This document shows positions 3,291 to 33,956 of a stretch of DNA of 40,402 nt, in pieces. The notes beneath the pieces were generated by a model. The model was given only the letters and a program-made list of their open reading frames with translations. It was not told the origin of the DNA and made no database searches. Position numbers and translations under genes: made by a program. The DNA is from a bacterium. Its GTDB lineage: Bacteria > ARS69. The stretch covers positions 1-40,402 of the forward strand of contig JALGZO010000206.1 of the NCBI GenBank assembly GCA_025774865.1, written 5' to 3'. How positions within the stretch are numbered: position 1 is the first letter of the stretch; the number at the start of each line of letters is the position of its first letter.

Positions 3291-4301
3291 ATGGAGCCGA
3301 CGCCGTTGACAGACGCCGAGCACGCCGCCCTGTTGGAGGGGGTCACCGCGGGTGATCGCCGAAGCCTGGCGCGGCTCATTTCGCTCGTGGAGAACGCCGA
3401 TCCGGGGGTCGAGCGGCTTCTGGCCGAGCTGTACCCGCGGACCGGTGGCGCGTACCGGATCGGGGTCACCGGCCCCCCCGGCGCCGGAAAGAGCACCCTG
3501 ATCGACGCCCTGGTCGCGACCCTTCGACCCCGCGGCACGAAAGTCGGCGTCGTCGCCGTGGACCCGTCGAGCCCGTTCACGGGCGGGGCCTTGCTCGGAG
3601 ATCGCGTTCGACTCACGTCACGAACGCCGGACCCGGGCCTCTTCTTCCGGAGCATGGCCACGCGTGGAAGTCTCGGGGGACTTGCGACGACCGCCTCGGA
3701 GGTGTCGGACATCTACGACGCGTACGGGATGGATCTCGTCTTCCTGGAGACCGTCGGGGTCGGACAGATAGAGCTTGACGTCGTTGCGGCGTCGGACTGC
3801 ACGGTGGTCGTCCTGGTTCCCGAGTCGGGGGACGAGGTCCAGGCGATGAAAGCGGGTCTGATGGAGATCGGGGATCTGTTCGTCCTGAACAAGTCGGATC
3901 GGGAGGGATCGGGTCGCGCCGCCAGGGAGATCACGTCGGTGCTGGGGCTTCGCGAACCCTCGACGGGCTGGCGGCCCCCGCTCGTGTCGGCCGTCGCGCG
4001 CGACGGTCGCGGTGTCACCGAGATCCTCACGGCGGTAGACGCGTTCCGCGAGCAGCAGACGGCGTCGGGCGAGGGCAAGACACGGCGCAAACGTGTACTG
4101 CGCGAGAAGATCCGGGAGGTCGCCGAAAGAATCCTGCGCCGGCAGCTGTGGAGCGGCGAGGGGGAGACGGCGCTCGAGGACGCCGCGGAAGCGGCTCTCG
4201 AGGACGGGAAGAATCCTTACGTGCTGGCGACCGAGCTCGCGAGTCGGCTGGCGAGCCGACGCGATGCGGAGTCGTCCCAACAACGGGGAGGTCGGTCATG
4301 A
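3291..4301 (+). CDS. meaB: MeaB/ArgK-type G-protein chaperone of B12-dependent mutases
   Basis: A 336-residue GTPase that guards acyl-CoA mutases: it gates loading of adenosylcobalamin and release of damaged cofactor. Visible motifs are the P-loop GPPGAGKST (61-69), the family segment [19 protein letters not shown], the switch/Walker B region [11 protein letters not shown], and the guanine-specificity motif NKSD. Length matches stand-alone MeaB (about 310-340). The start is uncertain: ATG at 3291 has a weak ribosome site, and TTG at 3306 preceded by GGAG is possible. The 3' end overlaps the mutase start by ATGA, a typical chaperone-mutase pairing. It is the only such G-protein in the window, so it may also serve the second mutase (25150-26730). 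Confidence 0.95.
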
Positions 4302-5953
4302 GCCGTGAGAAGCGCCAAGAGGATCACGCCCGGTACCGTGCAGCCGTGCGCGACACCACGCGGCGGGAGTGGGAATCCCTCTCGGGCCGGGTGACCGAGC
4401 CGCTCTACGTCCCGTCCCCCGACGACGACAAGGGGTGGGAGCGTCACGACGATCTGGGTTACCCGGGCGAGTTCCCTTACACGCGTGGGCCCTACCCCTC
4501 GATGTACCGAGGCAAATTCTGGACGATGCGCCAGTTCGCGGGGTTCGGGTCGGCGAAGGACACGAACGAGCGCTACAAGTATCTCCTCGAGCACGGCCAG
4601 ACCGGGCTCTCGGTGGCCTTCGACATGCCGACCCTGATGGGCTACGACTCCGACGATCCGCTCTCGCTCGGCGAGGTCGGTCGCTGCGGCGTCGCGATCT
4701 CCAGTCTCGAGGACATGGAGCAGCTCTTCCGCGAAATCCCGCTCGACAAGGTGTCCACGTCCATGACGATCAACGGCCCCGCGGCGATCATCTGGGCCAT
4801 GTACATCGTCGCCGCGCAAAAGCAGGGGGTCGAGAGGGCGAAGCTGCGCGGCACGCTCCAGAACGACATCCTGAAAGAGTACATCGCACAGAAGGAGTAC
4901 CTCTTTCCGCCCGAGCCCTCCATGGGCCTCGTCGTGGATACCATCGAGTTCGCTGCGAAGGAGATGCCGTACTGGCATGCCGTTTCCGTCAGCGGCTACC
5001 ACATTCGCGAGGCGGGCTCCACCGCCGCGCAGGAGCTCGCGTTCACGCTCGCCGACGGATTCGCTTACGTGGAGGCGACGATGGAGCGGGGGATCCCGGT
5101 GGACGACTTCGCACCGCGGCTTTCCTTCTTCTTCAACGCTCATTCGGATTTCTTCGAGGAAGTCTGCAAGTACCGGGCGGCGCGACGCATCTACGCGAAG
5201 CGAATGCGAGACAAGTATGGCGCCAAGGACCCCGCGAGCTGGCGACTGCGCACACACGCCCAAACGGCGGGGTGCAGCCTCACGGCGCAGCAGCCGGAGA
5301 ACAACATCATCCGGACCGCGGTGCAGGCTCTTGCCGCCGTGCTCGGCGGGACGCAGTCGCTGCACACGAACTCGATGGACGAGACGCTCGCCCTGCCCAG
5401 CGCGAAGGCCGCCAAGATCGCCCTTCGGACGCAGCAGGTGCTCGCGCACGAGACCGGCGTGGCCGACGTTGCGGATCCGCTCGGGGGCAGCTGGTTCGTC
5501 GAGAATCTCACCGACCAGCTCGAGGAGGAGGCGGAAGAGTACTTCCGTCGCATCGACGAGCTCGGCGGGGTCGTGGCGGCGATCGAACGTGGCTTCTTCC
5601 AACAGGAGATCGGGCACGCGGCCTATCGCTTCCAGAAGTCTCTCGACGACAAGAAGTACGTGCAGGTGGGGGTCAACGAGTACGTCGAGGAGGAGCCTCA
5701 TCGCCCCGTGGAGATCCTCAAGATCACGCAGGCGACGGAAGATGAGCAAGTGGCGCGCGTGCGAGCCGTGCGAGCGCGGCGCGACGCGGCCGCCGTCGAG
5801 AAGGCGCTCGCCCGCGTCCGGCAGTCCGCGAAGGACGGCGAGAACATGATGCCGGCCTTCATCGAAGCGGTGGAGGCTTATGCCACCCTGGGGGAAGTCG
5901 TGCAGGTCGTGAAGGAAGTCTACGGCGAGTACCTGGAGCCGGCCGTCGTCTGA
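4298..5953 (+). CDS. icmA: isobutyryl-CoA mutase-type large (catalytic) subunit
   Basis: A 551-residue TIM-barrel subunit of an adenosylcobalamin-dependent acyl-CoA mutase without a fused B12 domain. The start ATG at 4298 overlaps the meaB stop (ATGA) and has GGGGAG at 4285-4290. Substrate-pocket residues fit isobutyryl-CoA mutase (IcmA) rather than methylmalonyl-CoA mutase: RQFAGF gives Phe80 where methylmalonyl-CoA mutase has Tyr89, and IAQKEYLF gives Gln198 where it has Arg207. Catalytic Tyr234-His235 (SGYHIREAG) and Gln188 (TLQND) are kept. The predicted reaction is isobutyryl-CoA <-> n-butyryl-CoA, with one of the two small subunits next door supplying B12. The neighbouring butyryl-CoA oxidation genes agree. 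Activity on other branched acyl-CoAs (isovaleryl, pivalyl) cannot be excluded; automatic annotation would probably say methylmalonyl-CoA mutase. Confidence 0.88.
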
Positions 5954-5967
5954 GGGCGAGGAACGTG

Positions 5968-6417
5968 ATGGAGCAGCGCGGAAACGACCACCCGATACGC
6001 ATCATCGTCGCGAAGGTCGGCCTCGACGGTCACGATCGCGGCGTGCGCGTCGTCGCGAGGGCGCTCTTGGACGCGGGTATGGAGGTCATCTATCTCGGTC
6101 TCCGCCAGACGCCCGAGATGGTCGCCGAAGCCGCGCTCCAGGAGGACGCCGACGCCGTCGGCATCAGCATTCTCTCCGCCGCCCACATGACGATCTTTCC
6201 TCGCGTCGTGGACGAGCTACGGAGCCGCGAGCTCGGCCACGTCCTCGTGACCGGGGGCGGGATCATCCCGCCCGAGGACGTCGAGGCGCTGGAGCAGCTC
6301 GGCGTGGGGCGGCTATTCGAGCCGGGTACGCCCACCGAGGAGTTCGTCGAGTACCTGCGGACGGAAATCAGGCGCCGGCGCGCCGAGTTCGCGAAGACGG
6401 AGAAGCCACGCTCGTGA
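5968..6417 (+). CDS. B12-binding small subunit of acyl-CoA mutase, copy 1
   Basis: A 149-residue Rossmann-like cobalamin-binding protein. GLDGHDRG near the N-terminus is the DxHxxG motif whose His ligates cobalt from below; SILSAAH and VTGGGIIP are the two other B12-contacting loops. ATG at 5968 is preferred over the in-frame GTG at 5965 because GAGG (5958-5961) is then 6 nt away. It follows the mutase large subunit by 14 nt and overlaps copy 2 by GTGA. Free-standing small subunits of this size pair with about 550-residue large subunits in isobutyryl-CoA and split methylmalonyl-CoA mutases. Which of the two mutases this copy serves cannot be decided from sequence. It carries a longer basic C-terminal tail ([15 protein letters not shown]) than copy 2. 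Confidence 0.92.
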
Positions 6418-6833
6418 GCATCATCCGGGTTCTCGTCGCGAAACCGGGCCTCGACGGTCACGATCGGGGCGCGAAGGTGATCGCGCGCGCGCTGCGGGAC
6501 GCCGGCATGGAAGTCATCTACACCGGTCTTCACCAGACCCCGGAGATGATCGTGGACGCCGCCGTGCAGGAGGACGTGGACGTGATCGCGATGTCCACGC
6601 TCTCCGGCAACCACCTCACGGTCTTCCCCGAGGTGATGGATCGGCTCGCCGCCGCCGGCGCCACGGACGTCGTGGTCGTCGGAGGGGGGATCATTCCGGA
6701 GGACGACGCCGCTCAGCTACGGAAGCGGGGGGTCGCCCGCATCTTCGGTCCGGGCACCGACACGCACGAAGTCGTCGACTACGTCCGTTCCGCGGCGGAG
6801 AAGCGGGTCACCGACCGGGCGGCACCGGAGTGA
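6414..6833 (+). CDS. B12-binding small subunit of acyl-CoA mutase, copy 2
   Basis: A 139-residue paralogue of the preceding gene, starting with GTG in a GTGA overlap with its stop. The DxHxxG motif ([16 protein letters not shown]) and the B12 loops STLSGNH and [11 protein letters not shown] are present, so both copies should bind cobalamin. The two differ at loop residues (SAAH versus SGNH; GLRQTPE versus GLHQTPE), which points to different partners rather than a recent duplication. With only one mutase large subunit in this operon and a second one, lacking any small subunit, in the operon at 24746-31253, a division of labour is likely; this is inference. Confidence 0.92.
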
Positions 6834-6883: not shown

Positions 6884-7573
6884 TTGAAGTCGAAGGTGGG
6901 GAACGCGGAGGAGTGCGTGCGGCGGATTCCGGATGGCGCCTCCGTGATGATCGGAGGCTTCGGACTCTGCGGAACTCCCGAGAACCTGATCCGCCTGCTC
7001 GTCGAACACGGCGCGAAGGACTTGACCGTCATGAGCAACAACGCGGGGGTGGAGGACTTCGGGGTCGGACTCTTGATCAACCGCGGTCAGGTCAGGAAGA
7101 TGATCTCCACCTTCATCGGGGGGAATCCGAACCTCGAGAGGGCGATCATCGACGGCTCGGTCGAGGCTGAGCTCATCCCGCAAGGGACATTCGCCGAGAG
7201 GATTCGCGCGGCGGGTGCGGGGATCGCGGGATTCTACACGCCGGCGGGCGTCGGGACCGTCGTGGAAGAGGGAAAGGAAAAGCGGGTATTCGGCGGGCGC
7301 GAGTATCTCCTGGAGAAACCGCTCACGGCCGACTTCGCCCTCGTCAAGGGGTGGAAGGGTGACGAGGTCGGCAACGTCGTCTACCGTCGCACGGCTCGCA
7401 ATTTCCACCCGCTGATGGCGGCCGCCGCCGAGACGACTTTTGCGGAAGTCGAGGAGCTCGTGAAACCGGGAGAGCTGGATCCAGAAGTCATCGCGACTCC
7501 CGGCGTGTTCGTGGACACGATCTTCCAGGGTGAGAACTATGAAAAGCCTATCGAAAGAAGAGCGCATCGCTAG
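6884..7573 (+). CDS. scoA: 3-oxoacid CoA-transferase (SCOT type), subunit A
   Basis: A 229-residue alpha subunit of a heterodimeric CoA-transferase of the succinyl-CoA:3-ketoacid/AtoDA family, which moves CoA between succinyl-CoA (or acetyl-CoA) and acetoacetate or another short acid. [15 protein letters not shown] at about residues 22-36 is the subunit A signature, and [10 protein letters not shown] is also typical. The start is TTG at 6884, since the next in-frame ATG lies inside the conserved MIGGFG motif; a purine-rich stretch ending GGCGGTGG precedes it. It overlaps scoB by 35 nt, so translation is probably coupled. In this operon it could activate acetoacetate or (iso)butyrate at the expense of succinyl-CoA made by the propionyl-CoA route. 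Confidence 0.93.
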
Positions 7574-8198
7574 GCGGGCGGCTCGGGAGTTCCGCGACGG
7601 TGACTACGTGAATCTGGGCATCGGGATTCCCACGATGTGCGCGAGCTACGTACCGGAAGGGGTCCACATCACGCTGCACGCCGAGAACGGGATGCTGGGC
7701 AGCGGGCCGTATCCGATCGAGGGCGAGGAGGATCCCGATCTCATCAATGCCGGCAAGGAGACCGTCACGGAGACTCCGGGCTGCTCCTATTTCGCGTCGG
7801 ACCTGTCGTTCGCGATCGTCCGCGGCGGGCACCTCGACCTGACCGTCCTCGGCGCCATGGAAGTGGACGAGAGAGGGGATCTCGCGAACTGGATGATCCC
7901 GGATGCCGTCGTCAAGGGCATGGGCGGCGCGATGGACCTCGTGGCCGGCTCGAAGCGCGTTCTGGTGGCCATGTCCCATAGGTCGCGCGACGGCTCGCCC
8001 AAGATCCTCGGGAAGTGTACCCTTCCGCTGACGGGATCCCGGTGCGTCGACCGGATCGTCACGGAGATGGCCGTCATCGACGTGACGCCCTCGGGGCTTC
8101 GGCTCGTCGAGGTGCATCCCGACCACGGGGTCGACGACGTGGTCGCGGCGACCGACGCGAAGCTCGCCGTCGGCGAAGTTCGAGAAATGGTGATCTGA
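7539..8198 (+). CDS. scoB: 3-oxoacid CoA-transferase (SCOT type), subunit B
   Basis: The 219-residue beta subunit of the CoA-transferase. [13 protein letters not shown] at the N-terminus and ENGMLGSGP give the catalytic glutamate (Glu49), which forms the glutamyl-CoA thioester. [15 protein letters not shown] and GMGGAMDLV are further family blocks. ATG at 7539 was chosen because AGGGTGAG lies just upstream; an in-frame GTG at 7530 would add three residues. The gene begins inside the 3' end of scoA. Length is normal (about 215-220). The actual acid substrate (acetoacetate, butyrate or other) is not set by the visible motifs. Confidence 0.94.
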
Positions 8199-8213: not shown

Positions 8214-9371
8214 ATGTTTTTCCTCACGGAAGAGCACAGGATGATGCGGCGAATGGTGCGCGAGTTCTCCGAGAAGGAGATCGCGCCCAAGTCCGCCGAG
8301 ATCGACCGCACGTGCGAGTTCCCGGTCGACACGTTCCGGAAGATGGGTGAGCTCGGACTCCTGGGGATTCCGTACCCCGAGGAGTGGGGCGGCGCGGGGG
8401 CGGACTATCTCTCCTATGCCATCGCCGTGGAGGAGGTCGCGCGGGTGTGCGGGTCGACGGCGCTGTCGATGGCCGCCCACACGACGCTCGGTTGCGGCCC
8501 GATTCATCATTTTGGAACTGACGCACAGAAGGAGAAGTTCCTCCGTCCGTTGACGAGCGGCGAGATGCTCGGTGCGTACGGTCTCACCGAGCCGAACTCC
8601 GGCTCCGACGCCGGCGGGATGCAGACTCGCGCCGTGCGCAACGGAACGAGCTGGGTGCTCAACGGGCAGAAGGCGTGGATGACGAACGGCGGCTACGCGG
8701 GTCTCTACACCGTCACGGCGTTGACGGATCCGGACCAGAAGACCAACGGCATCACCGCGTTCTTGATCGAGAAGGGGCATCCCGGCGTCGAGATCGGTTC
8801 CGAGTACGACAAGCTCGGCTGTCGGGGCTCGAACACGGTGGAATTCTACGTCACCGACTGTCCCGTGGAAGACTCCATGGTGCTCGGTGAGGTGAATCGC
8901 GGCTTCCATCAGTTCATGGAGATCCTGAACATGGGGAGGATCTCCATCGGCGCCATGGCGCTGGGACTCGCCCAGGCGGCTCTCGAGCAGGCCGCGAAGT
9001 ACTCGCTGGAACGAGAGCAGTTCGGACGCCCGATCGGGAATTTCCAGGCGATCCGGTTCATGCTGGCCGACATGGCCACCGAGATCGAGGCGGCGCGGCT
9101 CCTCGTCTACCAGGCGGCGGTGCTGAAGGACCGTGGTGAGCCGTTCGCCGTCCAGGCCTCCAAAGCGAAGTTGTTCGCCTCCGAGGCGGCGCACCGCGCG
9201 TGCCACAAGGCGATCCAGATCCACGGCGGCTACGGCTACTCGAAGGAGTTCCCGGTGGAGCGGTACATGCGGGACGCGAAGCTCACGGAAATCGGCGAAG
9301 GGACCTCGGAAGTGCAGAGGATGATCATCGGCAAGAGCATTCTCGAGGAAGTCGCGAAGACGATGGAGTAG
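8214..9371 (+). CDS. short-chain acyl-CoA dehydrogenase (butyryl/isobutyryl-CoA type)
   Basis: A 385-residue FAD flavoenzyme that desaturates acyl-CoA at the alpha-beta bond and passes electrons to [17 protein letters not shown] is the substrate/FAD signature, and [16 protein letters not shown] is the C-terminal FAD-dimer signature. The catalytic base is Glu362 in [11 protein letters not shown], the position used by short-chain and butyryl-CoA dehydrogenases (isovaleryl- and long-chain enzymes place it elsewhere). In this operon the likely reaction is butyryl-CoA -> crotonyl-CoA, joining the mutase upstream to the dehydrogenase and thiolase downstream. 2-Methylbutyryl- or isobutyryl-CoA use is possible. 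No ETF genes are in the window. Confidence 0.93.
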
Positions 9372-9385
9372 AAAGGAAATACGAT

Positions 9386-10573
9386 ATGTCGAAGGACCGC
9401 GAGGCGGTCATCGTCGGTGCGGCCAGGACCGCGATCGGCAAGTTCAACGGGACGCTCTCCAGCACACCTGCCACGAAGCTCGGCGCCGCAGCCATCCGAG
9501 CGGCCGTGGAGCGCGCCAGCGTGGCGCCCGATCGCGTCGAGGACGTGATCATGGGCAATGTCCTCTCCGCGGGCGTCGGGCAGGCGCCGGCCCGGCAGGC
9601 CGCGATCCACGGCGGCATTCCGGCGTCGGTCGGGGCAATGACGATCAACAAGGTCTGCGGCTCGGGCCTGAAGGCCGTGTCCCTGGCTGCCCAGGCGATC
9701 CGCGCGGGTGACGCTTCCTGCGTCGTGGCGGGAGGCATGGAGAACATGTCGATGGCTCCGTACCTGGCGCCCGGCGCTCGCACCGGATACCGGCTCGGGG
9801 ACGGCAAGCTCGTGGATTCCATGGTGCACGACGGCTTGTGGGACTCATTCAACGATTTCCACATGGGGTCGACGGGTGAGCTCGTCGCCGAGAAGTACGA
9901 GATCGGCCGCGAGGAGCAGGACGAGTACGCGTACCAGAGTCACATGAAAGCGGCCGCGGCGCAGAAGACGGGGAAGTTCAAGGACGAGATCGTTCCCTTC
10001 GAAGTGCCGCAACGAAAGCGCGATCCGATCTCCTTCGACCTTGACGAAGCCGTTCGTCCCGACACGAGCGTAGAAGCGCTCAGCCAGCTCAGGCCGGCGT
10101 TCCAGAAGGGCGGCACCGTTACTGCCGGCAACGCGCCCGGCGTCAACGACGCGGGGTCCGCGGTGGTCGTGATGTCGGAGGCGGCGGCAGAACAGGACGG
10201 GGTGAAGCCGCTGGCCCGGATCATCGACTACGCCGTCGGCGGCATGGAGCCCGAGTGGGTGATGATGGCCCCCGTCGACGCCGTCTCGAAGCTCCTGAAG
10301 AAGACGGGGATGTCGATCGGCGACTTCGACCTGATCGAGCTGAACGAGGCCTTCTCGGTGCAGGCCATGGCGGTCACGCGCAAGATCGAAGCGGATCCGG
10401 AGAGGGTGAACGTGAACGGCGGGGCGGTCGCTCTGGGGCATCCGATCGGCTGCTCGGGGGCGCGGATCCTCGTCACGCTGCTTCACGCGATGAAGGACCG
10501 CGGGGCCAAGAAGGGACTGGCCGCGTTGTGCCTCGGCGGCGGCAACGCCGTGGCGCTCGCCGTCGAGATGTGA
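9386..10573 (+). CDS. acetyl-CoA acetyltransferase (thiolase)
   Basis: A 395-residue thiolase that splits acetoacetyl-CoA into two acetyl-CoA or runs in reverse. The nucleophile is Cys91 in [11 protein letters not shown], His352 is in [10 protein letters not shown], and the second catalytic Cys382 is in ALCLGGGNA. Length and spacing match biosynthetic-type (AtoB/PhaA) enzymes. ATG at 9386 has AAAGGA at 9373-9378. The stop overlaps the next small gene by GTGA. A second thiolase is encoded at 32614-33825; this copy, placed in the butyryl-CoA operon, is the better candidate for acetoacetyl-CoA. Confidence 0.95.
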
Positions 10574-10908: not shown

Positions 10909-11785
10909 GGCGAAGACGAAGGAGAGGAAGAGCAGCATGACCTTCGAGAAGACCAGCGTGATCGGCGCGGGCACGATGGGCAACGGGATCGCCCAGATTC
11001 TCGCCGTGTCCGGCCGGCATGTGCAGCTCGTAGACGTCAGCCGGCCCGCCCTCGAGAAGGCCGTCGCGAAGATCGGAAAGAGCCTCGCGAAGTTCGTGGA
11101 GAAAGGGAAGATCACGGATGAGGAGCGGGGCGCGGCGCTCGAGCGGATCGAGACGTCCGGCGACCTGGAGGCCGCGAGAGGCTCCGGCCTCGTCGTCGAG
11201 GCCGTCGTCGAGAGCCTTCCCACGAAGCTCGGCATCTTCGCCCAGCTTGCCGAAGTCGTGGCGCCGGACGCCATTCTGGCGAGCAACACCAGCTCGATCT
11301 CGATCACCGAGCTCTCCCGGCACACCGAAAACTCCGAGCGCGTCGTCGGCATGCACTTCATGAATCCGGTTCCGGTCATGAAGCTCGTGGAGGTGGTGCG
11401 GGGTCTGAACACGTCGGACGAAGCGGTCCGTGCGGTCGTCGAGACGGCGGAGGCGCTCGGCAAAGTGCCCGTGGTCGTGAACGACTACCCCGGCTTCGTG
11501 TCGAACCGCGTGCTCATGCCCATGATCAACGAGGCGATCTACTGTCTCATGGAGGGTGTCGCCGACGCAGAGGGCATCGACACGGTCATGAAGCTCGGCA
11601 TGGCGCACCCGATGGGTCCGCTCGCGCTCGCCGATCTCATCGGCCTCGACGTCTGCCTCAGCATTCTTCAGGTGCTGCACGAGGGGTTCGGTGATCCCAA
11701 GTACCGGGCCTGCCCGCTGCTCAAGAACATGGTCGCGGCCGGGAAGCTCGGGCGAAAGTCGGGCGAGGGGTTCTACCCGTACTGA
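10892..11785 (+). CDS. hbd: 3-hydroxybutyryl-CoA dehydrogenase
   Basis: A 297-residue NAD(P)-dependent enzyme that interconverts 3-hydroxybutyryl-CoA and acetoacetyl-CoA. The nucleotide-binding motif GAGTMGNGIAQ lies near residues 25-35. SNTSSISIT and GMHFMNPVPVMKLVEVV carry the catalytic Ser, His and Glu, and HPMGPLALADLIGLD the C-terminal signature. Two starts compete: ATG at 10892 with a perfect AGGAGG (10881-10886), and ATG at 10937 with GGAGAGG. The first adds a charged 15-residue leader not typical of the family but has the stronger ribosome site. It is the last gene of the operon. The matching enoyl-CoA hydratase is absent from the window. Confidence 0.94.
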   Translation: MGSTAEAKTKERKSSMTFEKTSVIGAGTMGNGIAQILAVSGRHVQLVDVSRPALEKAVAKIGKSLAKFVEKGKITDEERGAALERIETSGDLEAARGSGLVVEAVVESLPTKLGIFAQLAEVVAPDAILASNTSSISITELSRHTENSERVVGMHFMNPVPVMKLVEVVRGLNTSDEAVRAVVETAEALGKVPVVVNDYPGFVSNRVLMPMINEAIYCLMEGVADAEGIDTVMKLGMAHPMGPLALADLIGLDVCLSILQVLHEGFGDPKYRACPLLKNMVAAGKLGRKSGEGFYPY

Positions 11786-16686: not shown

Positions 16687-17049
16687 TCAGAGGCTGAACG
16701 ATTCGCCGCAGCCGCAGGTACCCTTCGCTTGAGGGTTGGTCCAGACGAAACGCTGGCTCATCAGCTCGGACTTGAAATCGAGCGTGGAGTTCTTCAGGAA
16801 GACGATGGACCGTGGATCGATGAAGACGGTCACTCCGTGCTGCGTGGTCACGTAGTCCCCGTCCCGCGGGCCGTCGGCCTCGTAGCTCATCGCGTACGTG
16901 GCGCCGGAGCAGCCGCCGCCCTTGACCTGCACCCGCAGCGCCTGGCCTTCGCAGCCCTCCCGCTCGCCGCGACGTGCAATCGCCTCGGCGGCGGCCTCGG
17001 TGATCGTGATCGGGGCTTGTGGGTTGCCCTTCTCGGATCCGACGCTCAT
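16687..17049 (-). CDS. A-type iron-sulfur carrier (HesB/IscA/ErpA/SufA family)
   Basis: A 120-residue carrier that receives Fe-S clusters from the SUF scaffold and passes them to target proteins. The three conserved cysteines are present: Cys47 in GGGCSGATY, and Cys112 and Cys114 in GTCGCGESF. ATG at 17049 is preferred because GAGG lies 6 nt before it; an in-frame ATG at 17064 would add five residues (MSEVP). It is divergent from a small ferredoxin and close to the suf operon, which lacks its own sufA, so it probably fills that role. SufA, ErpA and IscA cannot be told apart by motif alone. Confidence 0.94.
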   Translation of the reverse strand: MSVGSEKGNPQAPITITEAAAEAIARRGEREGCEGQALRVQVKGGGCSGATYAMSYEADGPRDGDYVTTQHGVTVFIDPRSIVFLKNSTLDFKSELMSQRFVWTNPQAKGTCGCGESFSL

Positions 17050-17103
17050 CGGCACCTCGCTCATGGCTCGGGACGGGGCTCGGGCCCGCCGCCGGTTCGA
17101 ACG

Positions 17104-17132
17104 ACGTTACGAACGGCTGAACGCCTGGTCAA
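17104..17132 (-). promoter_or_regulatory. candidate sigma70 promoter for the A-type carrier gene
   Basis: On the minus strand, TTGACC (17127-17132, 5 of 6 match) is followed after exactly 17 nt by TAACGT (17104-17109, 3 of 6). Transcription would begin near 17097, about 48 nt before the ATG at 17049. It lies in the 153-nt divergent gap shared with the ferredoxin gene, whose own promoter I could not identify. Confidence 0.45.
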
Positions 17133-17202
17133 CCGGGCTCCGCACGGATGTGTTACGCTCCGTCCCGGCTCGATCGGCAACCCCACAACCCGTAGGAGTG
17201 AC

Positions 17203-17445
17203 ATGTCGGACCCCGAACGCCGAATCGGCGACCTGACGGTGAAGATCGAACGTGATTCCTGCATCGGCTCCGGAAACTGTATCAAGGTCGCCCAGAGTGT
17301 CTTCGAGCTCGACGACGAAAGTGTCGTGGTCTTTCGGGACGGCCAGCCGCCGCCGGACCGGGCGATGGTCGTGGAAGCCTGCCAGAACTGCCCGGTGGAG
17401 GCGCTCGTCGTGATCGACGAAAAGGGAAACCGGATCGTGCCGTAG
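17203..17445 (+). CDS. small ferredoxin, probably [3Fe-4S] type
   Basis: An 80-residue ferredoxin. The cluster motif is CIGSGNC (a Cx5C pattern in which the usual central cysteine of CxxCxxC is Ser), and later CQNCPVEAL supplies CP. Loss of the central cysteine is the mark of [3Fe-4S] ferredoxins that often serve cytochromes P450 and other oxidoreductases, though four cysteines in total leave a [4Fe-4S] cluster possible. ATG at 17203 has AGGAG at 17194-17198. It is divergent from the A-type carrier and ends 14 nt from the convergent sufT, so it is flanked on both sides by iron-sulfur assembly genes. No P450 is in the window. Confidence 0.88.
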   Translation: MSDPERRIGDLTVKIERDSCIGSGNCIKVAQSVFELDDESVVVFRDGQPPPDRAMVVEACQNCPVEALVVIDEKGNRIVP

Positions 17446-17459
17446 GATCCCGCCGGCAC

Positions 17460-17813
17460 TCAGAACATCCCCAGCTCGAGCCTCGCGGCCTCGGACATGA
17501 GCTCCGGCGTCCAGATGGGCTCCCAGACGATGTCCACCTGCACCGTCTCGATACCTTCGATGGCCTCCAGCCGCCCCTTCACGTCGATGGGAATCGTCTC
17601 GGCCGCCGGGCAAGCCGGCGAAGTGAGCGTCATCTCCACCGTCGCGAGCGTCCCGTCGATGCGAACCGTGTAGACCAGGCCGAGCTCGTAGATGTCGACC
17701 GGAATCTCCGGGTCGAACACCGACTTCAGCCCGGCCACCACCAGCGCTTCCAGCTCCGGGGGGCCTGCGTAGGTCACACCGATGGAAGTCTTTCGCTCTT
17801 CGTCCTGCGACAT
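17460..17813 (-). CDS. sufT: SufT-like MIP18/DUF59 iron-sulfur assembly protein
   Basis: A 117-residue MIP18-family (DUF59) protein. VFDPEIPVDIYELGLVY is the family core and LTSPACPAAETIP carries the conserved cysteine region, ending in IVWEPIWTPELMS. Members adjacent to suf genes (SufT) help maturation of Fe-S proteins; the related PaaD works in phenylacetyl-CoA oxygenase assembly. ATG at 17813 has AAGGAG 6-7 nt upstream. It lies 32 nt downstream of sufU and is the last gene of the suf operon, which supports the SufT reading. Confidence 0.92.
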   Translation of the reverse strand: MSQDEERKTSIGVTYAGPPELEALVVAGLKSVFDPEIPVDIYELGLVYTVRIDGTLATVEMTLTSPACPAAETIPIDVKGRLEAIEGIETVQVDIVWEPIWTPELMSEAARLELGMF

Positions 17814-17845
17814 GACGACTCCTTGTTGACGACGGTGTTTTCGCG

Positions 17846-18304
17846 CTATTCCGTGGAGACCGGATCGCGGCGGTTGTCGAGGGCGGCCCGCAGCGTGTGC
17901 CACGGCAGGGTGGCGCACTTGACGCGGATCGGAAATTCGCGAACACCGGCGAACACGGCGAGCTTCCCGAGCGTGCCTTCCACATCGCCGGCCTCGGCCT
18001 GTCCCGTCACGAGGTCACGAAACGAATCCGAAAGCCGGGCGACGTCTGCCGGTGACTTCCCGGTGATCGTCTCGGTCATCATGGACGCGGACGCGGTGCA
18101 AATCGCGCACCCGGCTCCCGTGAAGCCGACTTCTTCGAGGTCGCCGCCTTCGCCCAGCTTGATCTCCACGTTGATCCGATCCCCGCAGAGCGGGTTGTAG
18201 CCCTCGGCCCGCCGGTCGGGATCGTGGAGATCGTGGAAGTTCCGCGGGCTCCTCTGGTGATCCAGGATCACCTGCTGATACAGCTCTCTCAGAACCGAGT
18301 CCAA
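17846..18304 (-). CDS. sufU: SufU iron-sulfur scaffold / sulfur acceptor
   Basis: A 152-residue SufU-type protein that takes the persulfide sulfur from SufS. Counting from the TTG at 18304, the zinc/sulfur ligands fall at Cys40, Asp42, Cys66 and Cys130 (PLCGD, GAGCAICTAS, VKCATLPW), close to the B. subtilis SufU positions. The TTG is chosen because GGAGG lies 5 nt before it and the family begins with this LDSVLRELYQ segment; a longer reading from 18364 would overlap sufS by 47 nt. Between sufS and sufT in the suf operon. Confidence 0.95.
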   Translation of the reverse strand: MDSVLRELYQQVILDHQRSPRNFHDLHDPDRRAEGYNPLCGDRINVEIKLGEGGDLEEVGFTGAGCAICTASASMMTETITGKSPADVARLSDSFRDLVTGQAEAGDVEGTLGKLAVFAGVREFPIRVKCATLPWHTLRAALDNRRDPVSTE

Positions 18305-18317
18305 CGCGACCTCCGAT

Positions 18318-19580
18318 TCACCGGAACAACCGGCGCACTTCCTCGATGCCGCCGGCGAGAGCATCGAGGTCTTCGCGGGTATTATAGACCGAAAGCGAAG
18401 CCCTCACGGTCGCCGGCAACCCGAACCGGTCCATCACCGGCTGGGCGCAATGGTGTCCGGTCCGAACGGCGATTCCCTCATGGTCCAGGATCGTCCCGAT
18501 GTCGTGCGGATGGACCCCGTCGAGGACGAACGACAGGACGGCCGACTTCTCCGGAGCGGTTCCGACGAGCCGCAGTCCTTCGACGGCCGAGAGACGTCCC
18601 GTGCCGTACTCGAGAAGCTCGTGCTCGTAGGCCGCGATCCTCTCCACGCCGGTGTCGGCCAGGAAGTCGATCGCCGCGCCGAGCCCCACCGCCCCGGCGA
18701 TGTTGGGGGTGCCCGCTTCGAACTTTCCGGGTAGGTCCGCGTAGGTCGTGCCCTCGAACGAAACCCGCTCGATCATGTCGCCTCCGCCCATCCAGGGCGG
18801 CATGCTCTCGAGGTGCTCACGCTTTCCCCAGAGAACTCCGATTCCCGTCGGCCCGAACATCTTGTGCCCGGAGACCGTGTAGAAGTCGCAGCCGAGATCC
18901 GGCAAATCGATAGGAAGGTGAGCGGCGACCTGCGCCCCGTCGAGGAGGACCACGGCCCCGACGCCGTGGCCCGCTTCGACGATCCGCTTCACCGGATTGA
19001 CCGTACCCAGAGCGTTCGACGCGTGCACGACGGCGACGATTCGTGTTCTCTCGGAGAGAAGCTTCTCGAACTCGTCCCAGATGAGAGCGCCGTCGTCGTC
19101 GATCGGAGCGGCGCGCAGGGTGGCGCCGGTCTGCTCGCAGGCGAGCTGCCAGGGGACGATGTTCGAATGGTGTTCCATCACGGTGACGAGGATCTCGTCG
19201 CCGGGGCCCAGGCGCGGGCGCGCGAAGGCTTGCGCGACGAGATTGATGCCCTCGGTCGCGCCGCGGACGAAGATGCACTCCGCCGGGTCGGCAGCGCCGA
19301 GGAACGCTTTGGCTTTCTCGCGGGCTCCTTCGTACGCCTCGGTGGCTTCGTGGCTCAACCGGTGGACGCCCCGGTGCACGTTCGAGTTGTGGTGGCGATA
19401 GAAGTCGCAGACCGCCTCGATGACGCTTTGGGGCTTCTGGGTCGTGGCGGCCGAGTCGAGATAGACGATGCGCCGCCCCGCGACCTCCCGGGCCAGCAGC
19501 GGGAACTGGGCCCGGATCCGGTCCACGTCCAGCGGCGGAGCGGACGGGGGAGGCGTTGACGTACGGACCGCGGACCTCAC
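18318..19580 (-). CDS. sufS: SufS cysteine desulfurase
   Basis: A 420-residue class V PLP enzyme that removes sulfur from cysteine for Fe-S cluster building. YLDSAATTQKP begins the fold, MEHHSNIVPW and DGAQ contribute PLP contacts, and Lys240 in VSGHKMFGPTG forms the Schiff base. Cys378 in RTGHHCAQPVM carries the persulfide; the RTGHHC form marks the SufS (group II) subfamily that works with SufU. GTG at 19580 has AGGAG about 7 nt upstream and begins 10 nt after sufD. Confidence 0.97.
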   Translation of the reverse strand: MRSAVRTSTPPPSAPPLDVDRIRAQFPLLAREVAGRRIVYLDSAATTQKPQSVIEAVCDFYRHHNSNVHRGVHRLSHEATEAYEGAREKAKAFLGAADPAECIFVRGATEGINLVAQAFARPRLGPGDEILVTVMEHHSNIVPWQLACEQTGATLRAAPIDDDGALIWDEFEKLLSERTRIVAVVHASNALGTVNPVKRIVEAGHGVGAVVLLDGAQVAAHLPIDLPDLGCDFYTVSGHKMFGPTGIGVLWGKREHLESMPPWMGGGDMIERVSFEGTTYADLPGKFEAGTPNIAGAVGLGAAIDFLADTGVERIAAYEHELLEYGTGRLSAVEGLRLVGTAPEKSAVLSFVLDGVHPHDIGTILDHEGIAVRTGHHCAQPVMDRFGLPATVRASLSVYNTREDLDALAGGIEEVRRLFR

Positions 19581-19590
19581 GTGACGACTC

Positions 19591-20898
19591 CTAAACGGTC
19601 GATAGCCTCTCCGCCACGATGGCCGAGAGGCGATCCCGCACCGGTTCGAGATCCATCCGGTCGAGGATCTCGTTGATGAACGCGAAGACGAGGAGCCGGC
19701 GAGCCGTCTTCTCGTCGATCCCGCGGGCGCGACAGTAGAACACCGCCTGTTCGTCGATCTGGCCGATGGACGCGCCGTGGGTGCACTTCACGTCGTCGGC
19801 GTAGATCTCGAGTTGCGGCTTCGTCTCGACGAGCGCGTCGTCCGACAGGAGCAGATTCTTGTTCGACTGAACGGCGTCGGTCTTCTGCGCGTCCTCGTCG
19901 ACGATGATACGTCCCGTGAACATGGCCTTTCCCTCGTCGCCGAGAACACCGCGGTAGTACTGGCGGCTCTTGCAGTTGGGGCGAGCGTGCCGGACCCTCA
20001 TGCGGCTGTCGTGCAGCTGCGTGCCGCGCGGTACGTACATTCCGTTGAGCACCGACATGCAGCGCTCGCCGTTGAGTGTCGGGAACACGTTGTTCCGCAC
20101 GAGTGCGCCTCCGAGAAGCGCGGAGTGGGATGCGAAGTCGCTGTCGGTTCGCTGGTCGACGTACAGAGTGGAGACGCTGTACGACGCGATGCTGCCGCGC
20201 TCGATCAGGTAGTGCCGCGCGGTCGCCCGCTTGCCGACGAAGACCTCGGTGACGGGATTCGTGAACCCGGCGCCGTCGCCGATGGCGACGTAGTCCTCGA
20301 TGAGCGTAGCTCGCGCGCCGTCTTCCACGACGAAGAGCGTGCGGGGATGCGTCATGGACGGCTCGGAGTCGTCGGTGGTGACGAAGAGCGCGTGAACCGG
20401 GCCCGGGAGCTCCACCCCGGCCGGCACGTGCACGAAGACGCCGTCGTCCAGGAACGCCGTGTTGAGCGCCGTGAACGCCTCGTCCTCGCCTTCGGTGAGG
20501 CGACCGAGGTGCGGCTTCACGAGCTCGGGCGTCTCGGCCAGGGCCGCGGCCAGGTTCGCGACGCGGACACCGTCCGGCAGGTGGTCGATGTTCGAACGAT
20601 CTTCATCGAAACGGCCGTCGACGAAGACCAACCGGGATCCATCGAGGCCGTCGAACCCGAGCCCCTCGAGATTCGCGGCCGGCGCCCCGCCGTTCCGGTT
20701 AGCCAGAAAGAAGGAGCCGCCGGCGATGGGCCGCACGTCCGTGAACCGCCAGTCCTCGTGCTTCAGGGTGGGGAAGCCGAGCTCCTCGAACCGGTCCCAG
20801 CCCCGGGTCCGCAGCTCCGCGACCCAGTCGGGAGCCCCGCGGCCTCGTTCCTCGCGGAAGGCGGCCCAGGTGTCGCGCCACGTGTTCTTCTCGATCAT
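19591..20898 (-). CDS. sufD: SufD, Fe-S scaffold complex subunit
   Basis: A 435-residue member of the SufB/SufD family, partner of SufB and SufC in the SufBCD scaffold. GFPTLKHEDWRFTDV near the N-terminus and the C-terminal block with SRQYYRGVLGDEGKAMFTGRI, DAVQSNKNLLLSDDA, KCTHGASIG and FYCRARGID are typical SufD. ATG at 20898 is used; the upstream stretch is open but runs into the end of sufC and has no conserved sequence. The ribosome site is weak (GAGAG), and translation may depend on sufC 22 nt upstream. Confidence 0.96.
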   Translation of the reverse strand: MIEKNTWRDTWAAFREERGRGAPDWVAELRTRGWDRFEELGFPTLKHEDWRFTDVRPIAGGSFFLANRNGGAPAANLEGLGFDGLDGSRLVFVDGRFDEDRSNIDHLPDGVRVANLAAALAETPELVKPHLGRLTEGEDEAFTALNTAFLDDGVFVHVPAGVELPGPVHALFVTTDDSEPSMTHPRTLFVVEDGARATLIEDYVAIGDGAGFTNPVTEVFVGKRATARHYLIERGSIASYSVSTLYVDQRTDSDFASHSALLGGALVRNNVFPTLNGERCMSVLNGMYVPRGTQLHDSRMRVRHARPNCKSRQYYRGVLGDEGKAMFTGRIIVDEDAQKTDAVQSNKNLLLSDDALVETKPQLEIYADDVKCTHGASIGQIDEQAVFYCRARGIDEKTARRLLVFAFINEILDRMDLEPVRDRLSAIVAERLSTV

Positions 20899-20920
20899 CA
20901 CCGTCAACTCTCGCCCCCTC

Positions 20921-21679
20921 TCAAGCGGCCGGGGCCGTTTCGAGCCAGGAGTACCCCTTCTCCTCGAGCTCGAGCGCGAGCTCCTTTCCTCCCGACTTCT
21001 CGATGCGTCCATTCACGAGCACGTGAACGTAGTCCGGTTGCACGTAATCGAGCAGCCGCTGGTAGTGCGTGATCACGAGCATGCAGCGGTCGGGCGAGCG
21101 AAGCTCGTTGATGCCGTCGGCGACGATGCGCAACGCGTCGATGTCGAGGCCCGAGTCCGTCTCGTCGAGGATCGCGACCCGAGGTTCCAATACCGCCATC
21201 TGGAAGATCTCGTGCCGCTTCTTCTCACCGCCGGAGAACCCCTCGTTCACGGAGCGCCGGAGGAAGGCCTCGTCCATCTGCACGAGAGAGAGCTTCTCCC
21301 TCGCGCGCTTCAGGAAGTCCAGGGCGTCGACTGGGGGCTCGCCCCGATGCTCCAGGACCGCGTTGTACGACGTCTTCAGAAACTCGAGGGTCGAGACCCC
21401 CGGAATCTCCACCGGGTACTGGAACGCCATGAAGAGACCCTCGCGCGCTCGCTCGTCGGACGCCATCTCCAGGACGTCCTTGCCGTCCAGGAGGATTTCG
21501 CCGTCGGTGACCACGTAGTTCTCGTGGCCGGCGAGGACCTGGGCGAGCGTGCTCTTCCCAGAACCGTTCGGGCCCATCATCGAGTGAACCTCGCCGGCGT
21601 CCACCGTGAGGTCGATACCGCGCAGGATCTGCTTGTCCTCCACCGACACGTGCAGGTTTCTGATCTCCAGCAAGCTCAT
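20921..21679 (-). CDS. sufC: SufC ATPase of the SufBCD complex
   Basis: A 252-residue ABC-type ATPase that powers Fe-S assembly on SufBCD. Walker A GPNGSGKST (36-44), the Q-loop in AFQYPVEIPG, the ABC signature FSGGEKKR, Walker B with DETDSGLDIDALR and the H-loop ITHYQRLL are all present and characteristic of SufC rather than transporters. ATG at 21679. It lies 20 nt downstream of sufB and 22 nt upstream of sufD. Confidence 0.98.
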   Translation of the reverse strand: MSLLEIRNLHVSVEDKQILRGIDLTVDAGEVHSMMGPNGSGKSTLAQVLAGHENYVVTDGEILLDGKDVLEMASDERAREGLFMAFQYPVEIPGVSTLEFLKTSYNAVLEHRGEPPVDALDFLKRAREKLSLVQMDEAFLRRSVNEGFSGGEKKRHEIFQMAVLEPRVAILDETDSGLDIDALRIVADGINELRSPDRCMLVITHYQRLLDYVQPDYVHVLVNGRIEKSGGKELALELEEKGYSWLETAPAA

Positions 21680-21699
21680 GCTCTTCTCGATCTCCTTGT

Positions 21700-23139
21700 C
21701 TATCCGACCGAGCCTTCGAGGCTCACGCTCAGAAGCTTCCGGGCCTCCACCGCGAACTCCATCGGGAGCTCGCGGAAGACCTCCTTGCAGAATCCATTGA
21801 CGATCATCGAGACCGCGTCTTCCATCTCGATGCCACGGCTCATGCAGTAGAACAACTGGTCCTCGCCGATCTTCGAAGTCGTCGCCTCGTGCTCGACCTT
21901 GGCGGTTCGGTTCCGCACGTCGAGGTAGGGGAACGTGTGCGCACCGCACTCGTCGCCGATGAGCATCGAATCGCACTGCGTGAAGTTGCGGGCGTTTCCC
22001 GCCCCCTTGCCGATCCGGACCAGTCCGCGGTATGAGTTCTGACCGTGTACGGCGGAAATCCCCTTCGAGATGATCGTGGATCGGGTGTTCTTGCCGAGGT
22101 GGATCATCTTCGTGCCGGTATCCGCCTGCTGTCGTCCGCTCGTGAGCGCGACGGAGTAGAACTCGCCGACCGTGTCGTCCCCCTTGAGGATGCAGCTCGG
22201 GTACTTCCAGGTGATCGCGGAGCCCGTCTCCACCTGCGTCCACGAAATGCGGCTGCGGTCGCCTTTGCAGATGCCCCGCTTCGTCACGAAGTTGTAGATG
22301 CCGCCCCGCCCGTCCTCGTCGCCGGGGTACCAGTTCTGGATCGTCGAGTACTTGATCTGCGCGTCCTCGAGCGCCACGAGCTCCACCACCGCGGCGTGCA
22401 GCTGGTTCTCGTCGCGCATCGGCGCGGTGCACCCCTCGAGGTAGCTGACGTAACTCCCCTTGTCCGCCACGATGAGCGTGCGCTCGAACTGGCCGGTGGA
22501 CGCGGCGTTGATGCGGAAGTACGTGGAAAGCTCCATCGGACAGTGGACGCCGGGCGGTACGTAGACGAAGGACCCGTCCGTGAAGACGGCCGAGTTGAGA
22601 GTCGCGAAGTAGTTGTCGGAGTAAGGGACGACCGTTCCCATGTACTTCCGGATGAGCTCGGGGTGCTCCCGGACCGCCTCGGAGAACGAGCAGAAGATGA
22701 TCCCGAGCTCGGCGAGCTTCTCCTTGAACGTCGTGGCGACGGAGACCGAGTCGAAGACGGCGTCGACCGCGACTCCGGCCAGCGCCATCCGCTCGTCCAG
22801 CGGGATCCCGAGCTTTTCGTAAGTTTCGAGGAGCTTGGGATCGACCTCATCGAGGCTGTTCGGCCTCTTCTTGGGGGCCGCGTAGTAACTGATGGCCTGG
22901 TAGTCGATGGGGGAGTGGTGGAGCTTGGGCCACTGCGGCTCCTCCATCGTCAGCCATTGCCGGTAGGCCTTGAGCCGCCACTCGGTCATCCACTCCGGCT
23001 CGTCCTTCTTCCCCGAGATATGGCGGACGACGGCTTCGTCGAGGCCCGGCGGCAGGAACTCCTGCTCGATGTCGGTGACGAAGCCGTACTTGTAGTCCCG
23101 CTTTGCGAACTCGTGAAGGGTATTCTCCGTGCTACTCAT
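21700..23139 (-). CDS. sufB: SufB, Fe-S scaffold protein
   Basis: A 479-residue SufB, normal length for the family, the scaffold on which the cluster is built. Typical blocks are [81 protein letters not shown] and the C-terminal segment with [19 protein letters not shown] (the SufC-interacting region). The start ATG at 23139 overlaps the rrf2 stop by ATGA, so regulator and scaffold are translationally coupled. Confidence 0.97.
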
Positions 23140-23639
23140 CTCTCTCCCAGGGCTTTCGAGAGACGCGTTGGAACCGGGATGAACTGCGGGACCGGTCCGA
23201 TCGCGCCGAGGTGGTCGCTCATCAGGTCACGAAGCGTGACGTTCGCCAGGAACTCTTGTATCCGGTCGTTCAGCTTTCGGACGGAGCTTGTGACGGGGCA
23301 TCCCACGAAGACGTTGCACTCCACGCAACCCGTATCTTCGTCTTCCGCGCAGCACGCGACGACTTTCACCGGGCCCTCCATCGCCTCGATCACGTCGCGA
23401 ACGGAGATCCGCTCGGCGGAGCGGGCGAGCGCGTAACCGCCCCGCGCTCCGCGGGTGGAGCTCACCAGTCCGGATCCGACGAGATCCTTGAGGACATTCA
23501 TGAGGACCGGCACCGGCACGTTGTGCCGCTCCGCGATCCGACGCGCGCTGACGGCGGTGGGCTCGGAGCGGCTGGGCTCCTCGGCGAGGCGGGCCAGCGC
23601 CACCAGCGCGTAATCGGTCCTTTTTGTGAATCCGAGCAC
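23136..23639 (-). CDS. Rrf2-family regulator of the suf operon
   Basis: A 167-residue winged-helix Rrf2 protein (IscR/SufR group). [17 protein letters not shown] opens the HTH domain, with [27 protein letters not shown] as the recognition region and [11 protein letters not shown] as the wing. Five cysteines cluster at Cys96, 97, 105, 108 and 114, suited to bind an Fe-S cluster. GTG at 23639 has GAGG about 6 nt upstream. As first gene of the suf operon it most likely senses cluster supply and represses its own operon; this is inferred from context and family. Confidence 0.94.
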
Positions 23640-24745: not shown

Positions 24746-25153
24746 CTACCCCTCGCAGAGCTCGATCAGGATCCCGGCCGTCGACTTGGGGTGAAGGAAC
24801 GCGATCTTCTTGCCCCCCGCGCCGACGCGCGGTTCGCGGTCGATCAGCTCGACGCCCGCCGCCTCGATCTCCTTCAACGTGGCAGCGAGATCCTCCACCC
24901 TCACCGTCACGTGGTGGATCCCGGGGCCGCGGCTCGCGATGAACCGGCCGATCGGCCCCTGGGGGTCGGTGGACTCGAGAAGCTCGAGCTCCGAGCCGCC
25001 GGCGTCGAGCTTCAGGACGCGGACCTTCTGGTCGGGGACCGCTTCTTCTTCGGTGACCCGGAATCCGAGCAACCGGGTGAACACGTCTCGGGCCGCTTCG
25101 AGATCCGCCACCGCGATGCCGAGGTGGTCGATGCCACGATAGCGCGGGGTCAT
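24746..25153 (-). CDS. mce: methylmalonyl-CoA epimerase
   Basis: A 135-residue VOC-fold metalloenzyme that converts (S)- to (R)-methylmalonyl-CoA. [14 protein letters not shown] with His10, the ELELLE segment, [12 protein letters not shown] with a further His, and ILIELCE with the last metal-binding Glu make up the expected set. The start ATG overlaps the mutase stop by ATGA. It is the last gene of the propionyl-CoA operon and its product joins the carboxylase to the mutase. Confidence 0.95.
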
Positions 25154-26730
25154 GGGCGGTAGACTCCCCAGACGTCGCGCAGCCCGTGGCAAATTTCGCC
25201 GAGCGACGCCTCGGCGCGCAGAGCGTCGACGATCGACTCCATGACGGGACCGTCGCCCTCGGCGGCCCGCTTCACCACGTGGAGCTTCGCCTCCACCACG
25301 TCGGCGTCGCGCGCGGCCTTGCGTTCCGCCAGGGCCCGCTTCTGATCCTCTTCGCTTTTCGGGTCCACCCTGAAGACGGGCGGCGGAGAGTCCTCCTCCT
25401 CGGCGTGCACGTTCACGCCGACCACGTGGGCGTCCCCCGACTCGATCGCGCGCTGGGCGCGAAACGCGGCTTCCTCGATCTCCCGGGTCTGGTATCCCTG
25501 CTCGATCGCCGCCACTGCGCCGCCCATTTCCTCGATCTTCTCGAGGTACTCGCCCGCGAGCCGCTCGACCTCGTCGGTGAGCCCTTCCACGAGGTCGGAG
25601 CCTCCGAGCGGATCGACCGCGTCGGCGACGCCCGTTTCCTCGGCGATCACCTGCTGCGTCCTCAGAGCGAGCTTCGCGGCCCCTTCCGACGGAAGGCCGA
25701 GCGCCTCGTCCCAGGAGTTCGTGTGCAGGCTCTGCGTGCCGCCGAGGACGGCGGCGAGGGCCTGCATCGCGGTCCGCACGACGTTGTTCAGTGGTTCCCG
25801 CGCGGTCAGGGTGGAACCGGCGGTCTGACTGTGGAAGCGGAGCATCCACGACTTGGGATTCTCGGCGGCGAACTCGTCCCGCATGATGCGCGCCCAGAGG
25901 CGCCGCGCGGCGCGAAACTTCGCGACCTCCTCGAAGAAGTGGTTGTGCACGTTGAAGAAGAAGGAGAGGCGCGGGGCGAATTCGTCGACGTCGAGGCCGG
26001 CGGCCTGGCCGGCCCGGACGTACTCCTTCGCGTTCGCGAACGTGAACGCGACCTCCTGTGCGGCCGTCGCGCCCGCCTCCCGGATGTGATAGCCGGAAAT
26101 CGAGATCGTGTTCCAGCGGGGGATGTGCTCCCGGCAGTAGCGGAAGATGTCCGCCGTCAGGCGCAGAGACTCCTTCGGCGGGAAGATGTACGTGCCCCGG
26201 GCGATGTATTCCTTGAGGAGGTCGTTCTGCGTGGTCCCCGACAGCGCCACCGGATCGATGCCGCGACGCTCGGCCAGAACCACCAGGAGACCGAGCAGCA
26301 CGGCGGCGGTCGAGTTGATCGTCATCGAGACGGACACCCGGTCGAGGGGGATGCCCTCGAAGAGGGTGTCGAGGTCGTGCACCGTGTCAATCGCGACCCC
26401 GGTTCGACCGACCTCGCCCGTGGCTGCCGGATCGTCGGAGTCGTAGCCCATCTGGGTGGGCAGATCGAATGCCACCGAGAGCCCGGACCCGCCCCGCTCG
26501 AGGAGGTAACGGAAGCGTCGGTTCGTTTCCGCGCTCGTGCCGAATCCCGAGTACTGGCGCATCGTCCAGAAGCGGCCGCGATACATGTTCGGATAGATGC
26601 CGCGGGTGAAGGGGTGACTTCCCGGCTCACCGGGCGCGACGGGGTGCGCCGGCCAGACTGCGGGGAGCTCGATCCCGGAAGACGTCTCGAACTTCTCCCG
26701 CCGTTCCGCGCGTCTCGCTTTCGTGCTCAC
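25150..26730 (-). CDS. mcmA: methylmalonyl-CoA mutase, large (catalytic) subunit
   Basis: A 526-residue B12-dependent mutase barrel without its own B12 domain, converting (R)-methylmalonyl-CoA to succinyl-CoA. Unlike the copy at 4298-5953 it has the methylmalonyl pocket: Tyr60 in RQYSGFG (P. shermanii Tyr89) and Arg178 in YIARGTYIF (Arg207). Catalytic Tyr214-His215 (SGYHIREAG) and Gln168 (TTQND) are present. GTG start in a GTGA overlap with the biotin-carrier gene. The operon has the carboxylase and epimerase but no B12-binding subunit or MeaB; those in the 3291-6833 region are the nearest candidates. Confidence 0.94.
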
Positions 26731-27263
26731 GACGACCCCTTCTCTCGGAGGACGACGAGCACGTCACCTCCGACCACGGTGTCACCGGGCGCCACCCGGA
26801 TCTCGGCGACGATCCCATCGGCCTCGGAGGCGAGCTCGTTCTGCATCTTCATCGCCTCGACGACGATGACGGGCTTCCCGGCCTCGATCTCGTCGCCGAC
26901 GTTCACCGGAATGTCCACGACGACGCCCGGCATCGGCGCCGTGACGTCGGAAGGCCCTGCGTGACTCGGACCGTGGAACGCCTCGAGCGCGCGGGAGACG
27001 TCGTCTTGAACCCGAGCCTCGATCCTCTCGCCGTCGAGGGAGACGAACACCCGATCGCTCTCTCGGTCGAGGATCATCTCACGGCTGTGACCGTCGAGGA
27101 GGAGGGAGTGGAGCGACGAGTCGTGCAGAAGCGTGAGATCCGCCTCGACCGGACGATCGTCGAGTCGGACCTCGAGCCGATCGTCGTGTTCCGTAATGTC
27201 CACGACGTGCTCCTTGCCCTTCACGGTCACGTAGTAGCGGATGGTGGAGTGGACGGAGCTCAT
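26727..27263 (-). CDS. biotin carboxyl carrier protein of the propionyl-CoA carboxylase
   Basis: A 178-residue protein ending in a biotinyl domain: EAMKM with biotin-accepting Lys139, preceded by [16 protein letters not shown]. The first 90 residues ([14 protein letters not shown]..., [16 protein letters not shown]...) resemble the BT-type linker domain that precedes the carrier in full-length carboxylase alpha subunits. Together with the overlapping biotin carboxylase (505 residues) it adds up to the length of a PccA chain, so the alpha subunit appears split at an ATGA junction. It carries carboxybiotin between the two catalytic subunits. Confidence 0.92.

Positions 27264-33874: not shown

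Positions 33875-33956
<82 letters not shown>

Follow-up and report, generated by a model that had tools for sequence, protein, structure and literature searches.

Isobutyryl-coenzyme A (CoA) mutase (ICM) and its relatives occur as two-part and as fused enzymes. In the Streptomyces ICM, the B12-binding small subunit (IcmB) is separate from the large subunit (IcmA), and 2-hydroxyisobutyryl-CoA mutase (HCM; HcmA/HcmB, PDB entry 4r3u) is likewise composed of separate large and small subunits; IcmF (entry 4xc6) joins chaperone, B12, and mutase domains in a single fusion of 1,100 residues. Syntrophothermus lipocalidus TGB-C1 isomerizes isobutyrate to butyrate and has a gene cluster (Slip_0757–0760) encoding mutase N- and C-terminal proteins, an adenosyltransferase, and MeaB (PMC5017805), and a similar gene set is present in Syntrophomonas BUT1 (PMC6687939). 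Here we analyze a stretch of 40,402 nucleotides (contig JALGZO010000206.1 of assembly GCA_025774865.1, from a bacterium of the ARS69 lineage), the whole of which we call the window, and in particular its mutase gene at 4298–5953. Based on residues, trees, and gene context, we predict with good confidence that its product is the large subunit of an adenosylcobalamin-dependent ICM of the two-part type.

The 551-residue product of this gene has no B12 domain among its profile matches. In a search of the PDB, its Phe80 and Gln198 align to Tyr89 and Arg207 of the methylmalonyl-CoA mutase (MCM) MutB of P. shermanii, and likewise to human MCM. We take Tyr/Arg to be the mark of MCM and Phe/Gln to be that of ICM, a rule with which the solved sequences agree: MCMs of known structure read RQYAGF and MVRNTY, HCM reads RQIAGF and MAQKEY, the window protein reads RQFAGF and IAQKEY, and IcmF (4xc6), with RMFAGE and DILKEDQGQNT, has Phe and Gln in the diagnostic columns. 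MCM (MutB, 1req; human MMUT, 2xij; and the second mutase of the window, 25150–26730) shares the fold family and the catalytic Tyr–His with the 4298–5953 protein but differs from it in these columns. An earlier note, made from the letters of this DNA, had claimed that the mutase beside meaB carries the residues of ICM rather than those of MCM and that its catalytic Tyr–His is intact. Comparison of the columns with solved MCM and IcmF supports the claim, the codons for Phe80 and Gln198 agree with the translation, and the catalytic pair is present at residues 234–235, in a column where 207 of the 213 aligned sequences have His.

Among 195 non-redundant relatives, 143 combine Phe with Gln, 52 combine Tyr with Arg, and none has a mixed pair, indicating that the pairing in the 4298–5953 mutase is not due to chance; the ratio of 143 to 52 is no census because the sample was partly picked by similarity to this protein. 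Position 113 separates the two sets fully (Leu/Ile in the Phe/Gln set versus Gln/His in the Tyr/Arg set), and positions 199 and 200 do so almost fully. The best 80 relatives in named genomes are all of the Phe/Gln type, with both motifs read in 79 and Phe alone in the other (L013). Phe and Gln are also found in three Actinomycetota proteins from large genomes that we label Streptomyces-type IcmA on the basis of length, residue numbers, and resemblance; the two that were counted have 566 residues, the same length class as the window protein, with Phe and Gln at the identical numbers 80 and 198, and the identity of this type to the window protein is 57%. The 4298–5953 mutase belongs to a known, widespread Phe/Gln kind, the stand-alone clade of which extends across Chloroflexota, Actinomycetota, Krumholzibacteriota, Deinococcus, Thermoplasmata, and other archaea.

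The same division is seen in phylogenetic trees. In a careful IQ-TREE analysis of 50 proteins from which columns 80 and 198 had been removed, one branch (support 99/100) divides Phe/Gln from Tyr/Arg proteins, and the 4298–5953 protein and Streptomyces-type IcmA are both members of a 23-row Phe/Gln set (99/96). The log-likelihood falls by 60 units when this protein and its ortholog from G003, a genome of another genus in the same family, are constrained to the Tyr/Arg side (p = 0.0139 in the approximately unbiased [AU] test). The protein was thus found with IcmA and not inside the MCMs, the placement that the earlier note had named as telling against its claim. Automatic annotation would nonetheless make it an MCM, given that the top NCBIfam match of both window mutases is TIGR00641 (methylmalonyl-CoA mutase N-terminal domain), and the pair shows 54% sequence identity across 492 residues. 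The reading as an MCM is rejected by residues, tree, and AU test: the Tyr and Arg that bind the carboxylate are replaced by Phe and Gln, the careful tree refuses the placement, and a Tyr/Arg mutase with epimerase and carboxylase genes is present in the same window. We consider the chance that 4298–5953 encodes an MCM to be minimal.

Several observations weigh against the assignment of 4298–5953 as an ICM. The Phe/Gln versus Tyr/Arg split was also recovered (support 96) in a quick tree of 83 rows built earlier, but the MCM placement was not rejected there by the AU test (p = 0.588); we attribute this to a short search that missed a better tree, and the analysis was repeated with the 50 rows and careful search described above. 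In the 83-row tree, the position of HCM is inside or adjacent to the Phe/Gln group, and clade membership therefore leaves the substrate unfixed. The acyl-CoA dehydrogenase gene downstream (8214–9371) has no above-cut-off match to any specific model, and the assembly is estimated to be 92.65% complete and 8.3% contaminated.

With respect to substrate, an HCM would link 2-hydroxyisobutyryl-CoA and 3-hydroxybutyryl-CoA, and the HCM large subunit (4r3u) is the top PDB match of the window protein (E 1e-166), has Gln at 198 in common with it, and would suit the 3-hydroxybutyryl-CoA dehydrogenase gene nearby. We reject this identity because the Ile (in RQIAGF) and Asp (in STDFD) of HCM, Ile90 and Asp117 in HcmA numbering, are replaced by Phe80 and Ala107; Ala occupies the latter position in all 143 Phe/Gln and all 52 Tyr/Arg relatives, and an HCM at this locus is very unlikely. 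An IcmA-like enzyme might also act mainly on another acyl-CoA that has no free carboxylate, such as isovaleryl- or pivalyl-CoA or a longer branched chain, in keeping with the variation at position 166 and others inside the Phe/Gln group; the genes nearby, however, belong to four-carbon oxidation (3-hydroxybutyryl-CoA dehydrogenase, thiolase, and CoA-transferase), and we regard such a substrate as unlikely.

The organization of the locus agrees with a two-part ICM. The large subunit stands alone, and separate B12 subunits that match TIGR00640 are encoded by two tandem, overlapping genes directly downstream (subunits A and B; table 1). The fused B12 domain of an ethylmalonyl-CoA mutase (MeaA/Ecm) is also absent from the 551-residue protein. 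The IcmF model (NF045497) scores 367.9 bits against a cut-off of 1500; IcmF, which lies on a long branch, differs in being one fused protein, whereas the chaperone, mutase, and B12-binding proteins of the window are products of separate genes. In Streptomyces-type loci, neither a small subunit nor MeaB was detected within ~3–4 kb of icmA, whereas in the window both stand in one tight run with the large subunit. The S. lipocalidus cluster, compared by description only, is alike in having separate large and small subunits and MeaB joined to butyrate beta-oxidation and differs in including an adenosyltransferase. The tandem pair of small subunits had gone unnoticed in the earlier note.

Table 1. 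Features of the window that bear on the two mutase systems
Feature	Positions	Strand	Evidence
MeaB-type G-protein chaperone	3291–4301	+	TIGR00750, 323.5 bits, above cut-off; overlaps mutase start (ATGA)
Predicted IcmA-type stand-alone B12 acyl-CoA mutase large subunit	4298–5953	+	Phe80, Gln198, Ala107, Tyr234-His235; tree
Phe80 codon	4535–4537	+	TTC, in RQFAGF
Gln198 codon	4889–4891	+	CAG, in IAQKEY
B12-binding small subunit A	5968–6417	+	DGHDRG motif; TIGR00640, 158 bits; likely partner of the ICM large subunit
B12-binding small subunit B	6414–6833	+	DGHDRG motif; TIGR00640, 169 bits; 54% identical to A
3-Oxoacid CoA-transferase subunit A	6884–7573	+	TIGR02429, above cut-off
3-Oxoacid CoA-transferase subunit B	7539–8198	+	TIGR02428, above cut-off; ATG start read
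Short-chain acyl-CoA dehydrogenase family	8214–9371	+	Acyl-CoA dehydrogenase models, all under their own cut-offs
Acetyl-CoA C-acyltransferase (thiolase)	9386–10573	+	TIGR01930, above cut-off
3-Hydroxybutyryl-CoA dehydrogenase	10937–11785	+	NF004474, above cut-off
Methylmalonyl-CoA epimerase	24746–25156	−	TIGR03081, above cut-off
Second mutase large subunit, predicted MCM type	25150–26730	−	Tyr60, Arg178; without own B12 domain; tree
Biotin carrier protein	26727–27263	−	AMKM biotinylation motif read in sequence; no NCBIfam match
Biotin carboxylase subunit	27260–28777	−	NF006367, above cut-off
Carboxyltransferase subunit, propionyl-CoA/methylmalonyl-CoA type	28834–30435	−	TIGR01117, 782 bits, under cut-off of 998.8

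The gene context of 4298–5953 fits a butyrate-type oxidation, and from it we posit the following scheme. MeaB would load and guard the B12 mutase, for which subunit A most likely carries the cofactor, and the mutase would interconvert isobutyryl-CoA and n-butyryl-CoA through a radical shift of the carbon skeleton. Phe80 and Gln198 would favor a substrate without a free carboxylate, in the place where Tyr and Arg of MCM hold the carboxylate of methylmalonyl-CoA. Successive action of the acyl-CoA dehydrogenase, a crotonase, the 3-hydroxybutyryl-CoA dehydrogenase, and the thiolase would then turn the n-butyryl-CoA into two acetyl-CoA, and acids or acetoacetate would be activated by the CoA-transferase; crotonases are encoded elsewhere in the genome. 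In this scheme, isobutyryl-CoA derived from valine or isobutyrate would enter the oxidation, or the flux may run in the reverse direction. No cobalamin riboswitch was found upstream of the mutase in the window. The interval between the two mutase blocks (16687–23639, minus strand) holds genes read from their translations as iron–sulfur assembly proteins SufB, SufD, a SufS-like and a SufA-like protein, and an Rrf2-type regulator. A tRNA (33875–33956, plus strand; Rfam RF00005, 58.6 bits) is immediately followed by a trigger-factor-like gene, after which come clpX-like and lon-like genes.

The second mutase (526 codons, GTG start) is predicted by residues, tree, and neighborhood to be the true MCM of a propionyl-CoA pathway. 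Its codons (Tyr60, 26553–26551; Arg178, 26199–26197) bear out the two residues that had been read at the places equivalent to Phe80 and Gln198, the strand, minus, having gone unstated. Carboxylase and epimerase genes flank this mutase and not the 4298–5953 mutase, and the same trend is found in loci that hold both types (L014, L020, L051, and L059), where the Tyr/Arg gene is the one closest to carboxylase or epimerase genes. The 4.7 Mb assembly yielded no PF01642 protein besides these two mutases. The 99/100 branch separates them from each other, and a recent duplication is therefore rejected as their source. Tree, residues, and gene neighborhood thus uphold the proposal that the two are different enzymes. 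Both gene runs are kept in G003 (loci L142 and L143), with mutases 78% and 75% identical to those of the window and, as in the window, two small subunits adjoining the Phe/Gln gene.

Unexpectedly, both loose B12 subunits of the genome adjoin the 4298–5953 mutase and none adjoins the 25150–26730 mutase. Subunit A falls together (97/89) with small subunits from genomes that have no stand-alone mutase other than a Phe/Gln one, and it is likely the partner of the 4298–5953 large subunit. Subunit B has no supported placement; its proximity to an orphan small subunit of G057 (86) was lost in the careful tree. We also tried to label small subunits as ICM type or MCM type from the tree, and this was abandoned: the labels of ICM-only and MCM-only genomes did not cluster (7 changes versus 7.7 with shuffled labels), so that a supported grouping is available for subunit A only. 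Subunit B may serve the MCM in trans, which we put forward as a proposal.

Among 25 genomes with both Phe/Gln and Tyr/Arg stand-alone large subunits, 19 have exactly one small subunit, as tallied by hand from tables of strong stand-alone TIGR00640 matches against stand-alone large subunits, although the 25 include some incomplete drafts, with completeness at 82% for one of the 19. This single subunit is often encoded beside the Phe/Gln gene. The other six genomes, including the window genome and G003, have two or more. The most economical interpretation is that in most of these lineages the two enzymes probably share a single small subunit. We found no published account of a B12 subunit shared by ICM and MCM, in a search that left subscription journals mostly outside. 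In the family of the window genome, two neighboring genes may have taken the place of the gene for the shared subunit, one serving the ICM and the other acting in trans for the MCM 18 kb away, with a single MeaB; we offer this tentatively, at slightly less than an even chance. If sharing is real, enzyme counts cannot rest on counts of small subunits, and partner choice would be directly testable in a lineage with two adjacent subunits.

The earlier note had also expected 4298–5953 to be mislabelled by automatic annotation, and the TIGR00641 name on both mutases supports it; no stand-alone ICM model is among the NCBIfam matches of the window mutases. Plasmid-borne Phe/Gln relatives are annotated as 'methylmalonyl-CoA mutase family protein', and the annotations and family models examined here give the Phe/Gln clade MCM names. 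For fused ICM, a wrong MCM name is already documented in the literature (discussed in PMC7764203), and the stand-alone case is therefore an extension and not a discovery. Given these names, genome-based models probably count the propionate/methylmalonyl route too often and overlook isobutyrate–butyrate exchange.

Other relatives depart from the arrangement of the window. For G002, which belongs to the family of the window genome, the search yielded an IcmF fusion and a Tyr/Arg mutase (L146 and L220) but no stand-alone mutase of the Phe/Gln type, a pattern which suggests that one form of ICM may replace the other within the family. The 2.5 Mb genome of G036 has 19 mutase-family matches, an unusual expansion of paralogs, several of which are 40–48% identical to the 4298–5953 protein; one copy (L127) is Tyr/Arg. 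Large subunits that are neither Phe/Gln nor Tyr/Arg are encoded at L223 and L224 (G061, Clostridiales bacterium PH28_bin88); at L221 and L222; at L092; and at L093, with the residue pairs Leu/Ser (two paralogs), Phe/Ala, Ile/Trp, and Val/Val. The Leu/Ser paralogs have their own small subunit, and one also has meaB. Finally, a 37 kb linear plasmid of Streptomyces canus (NZ_CP107993.1; L091) encodes a Tyr/Arg stand-alone mutase and a small subunit that adjoin metH, metF, and ahcY.
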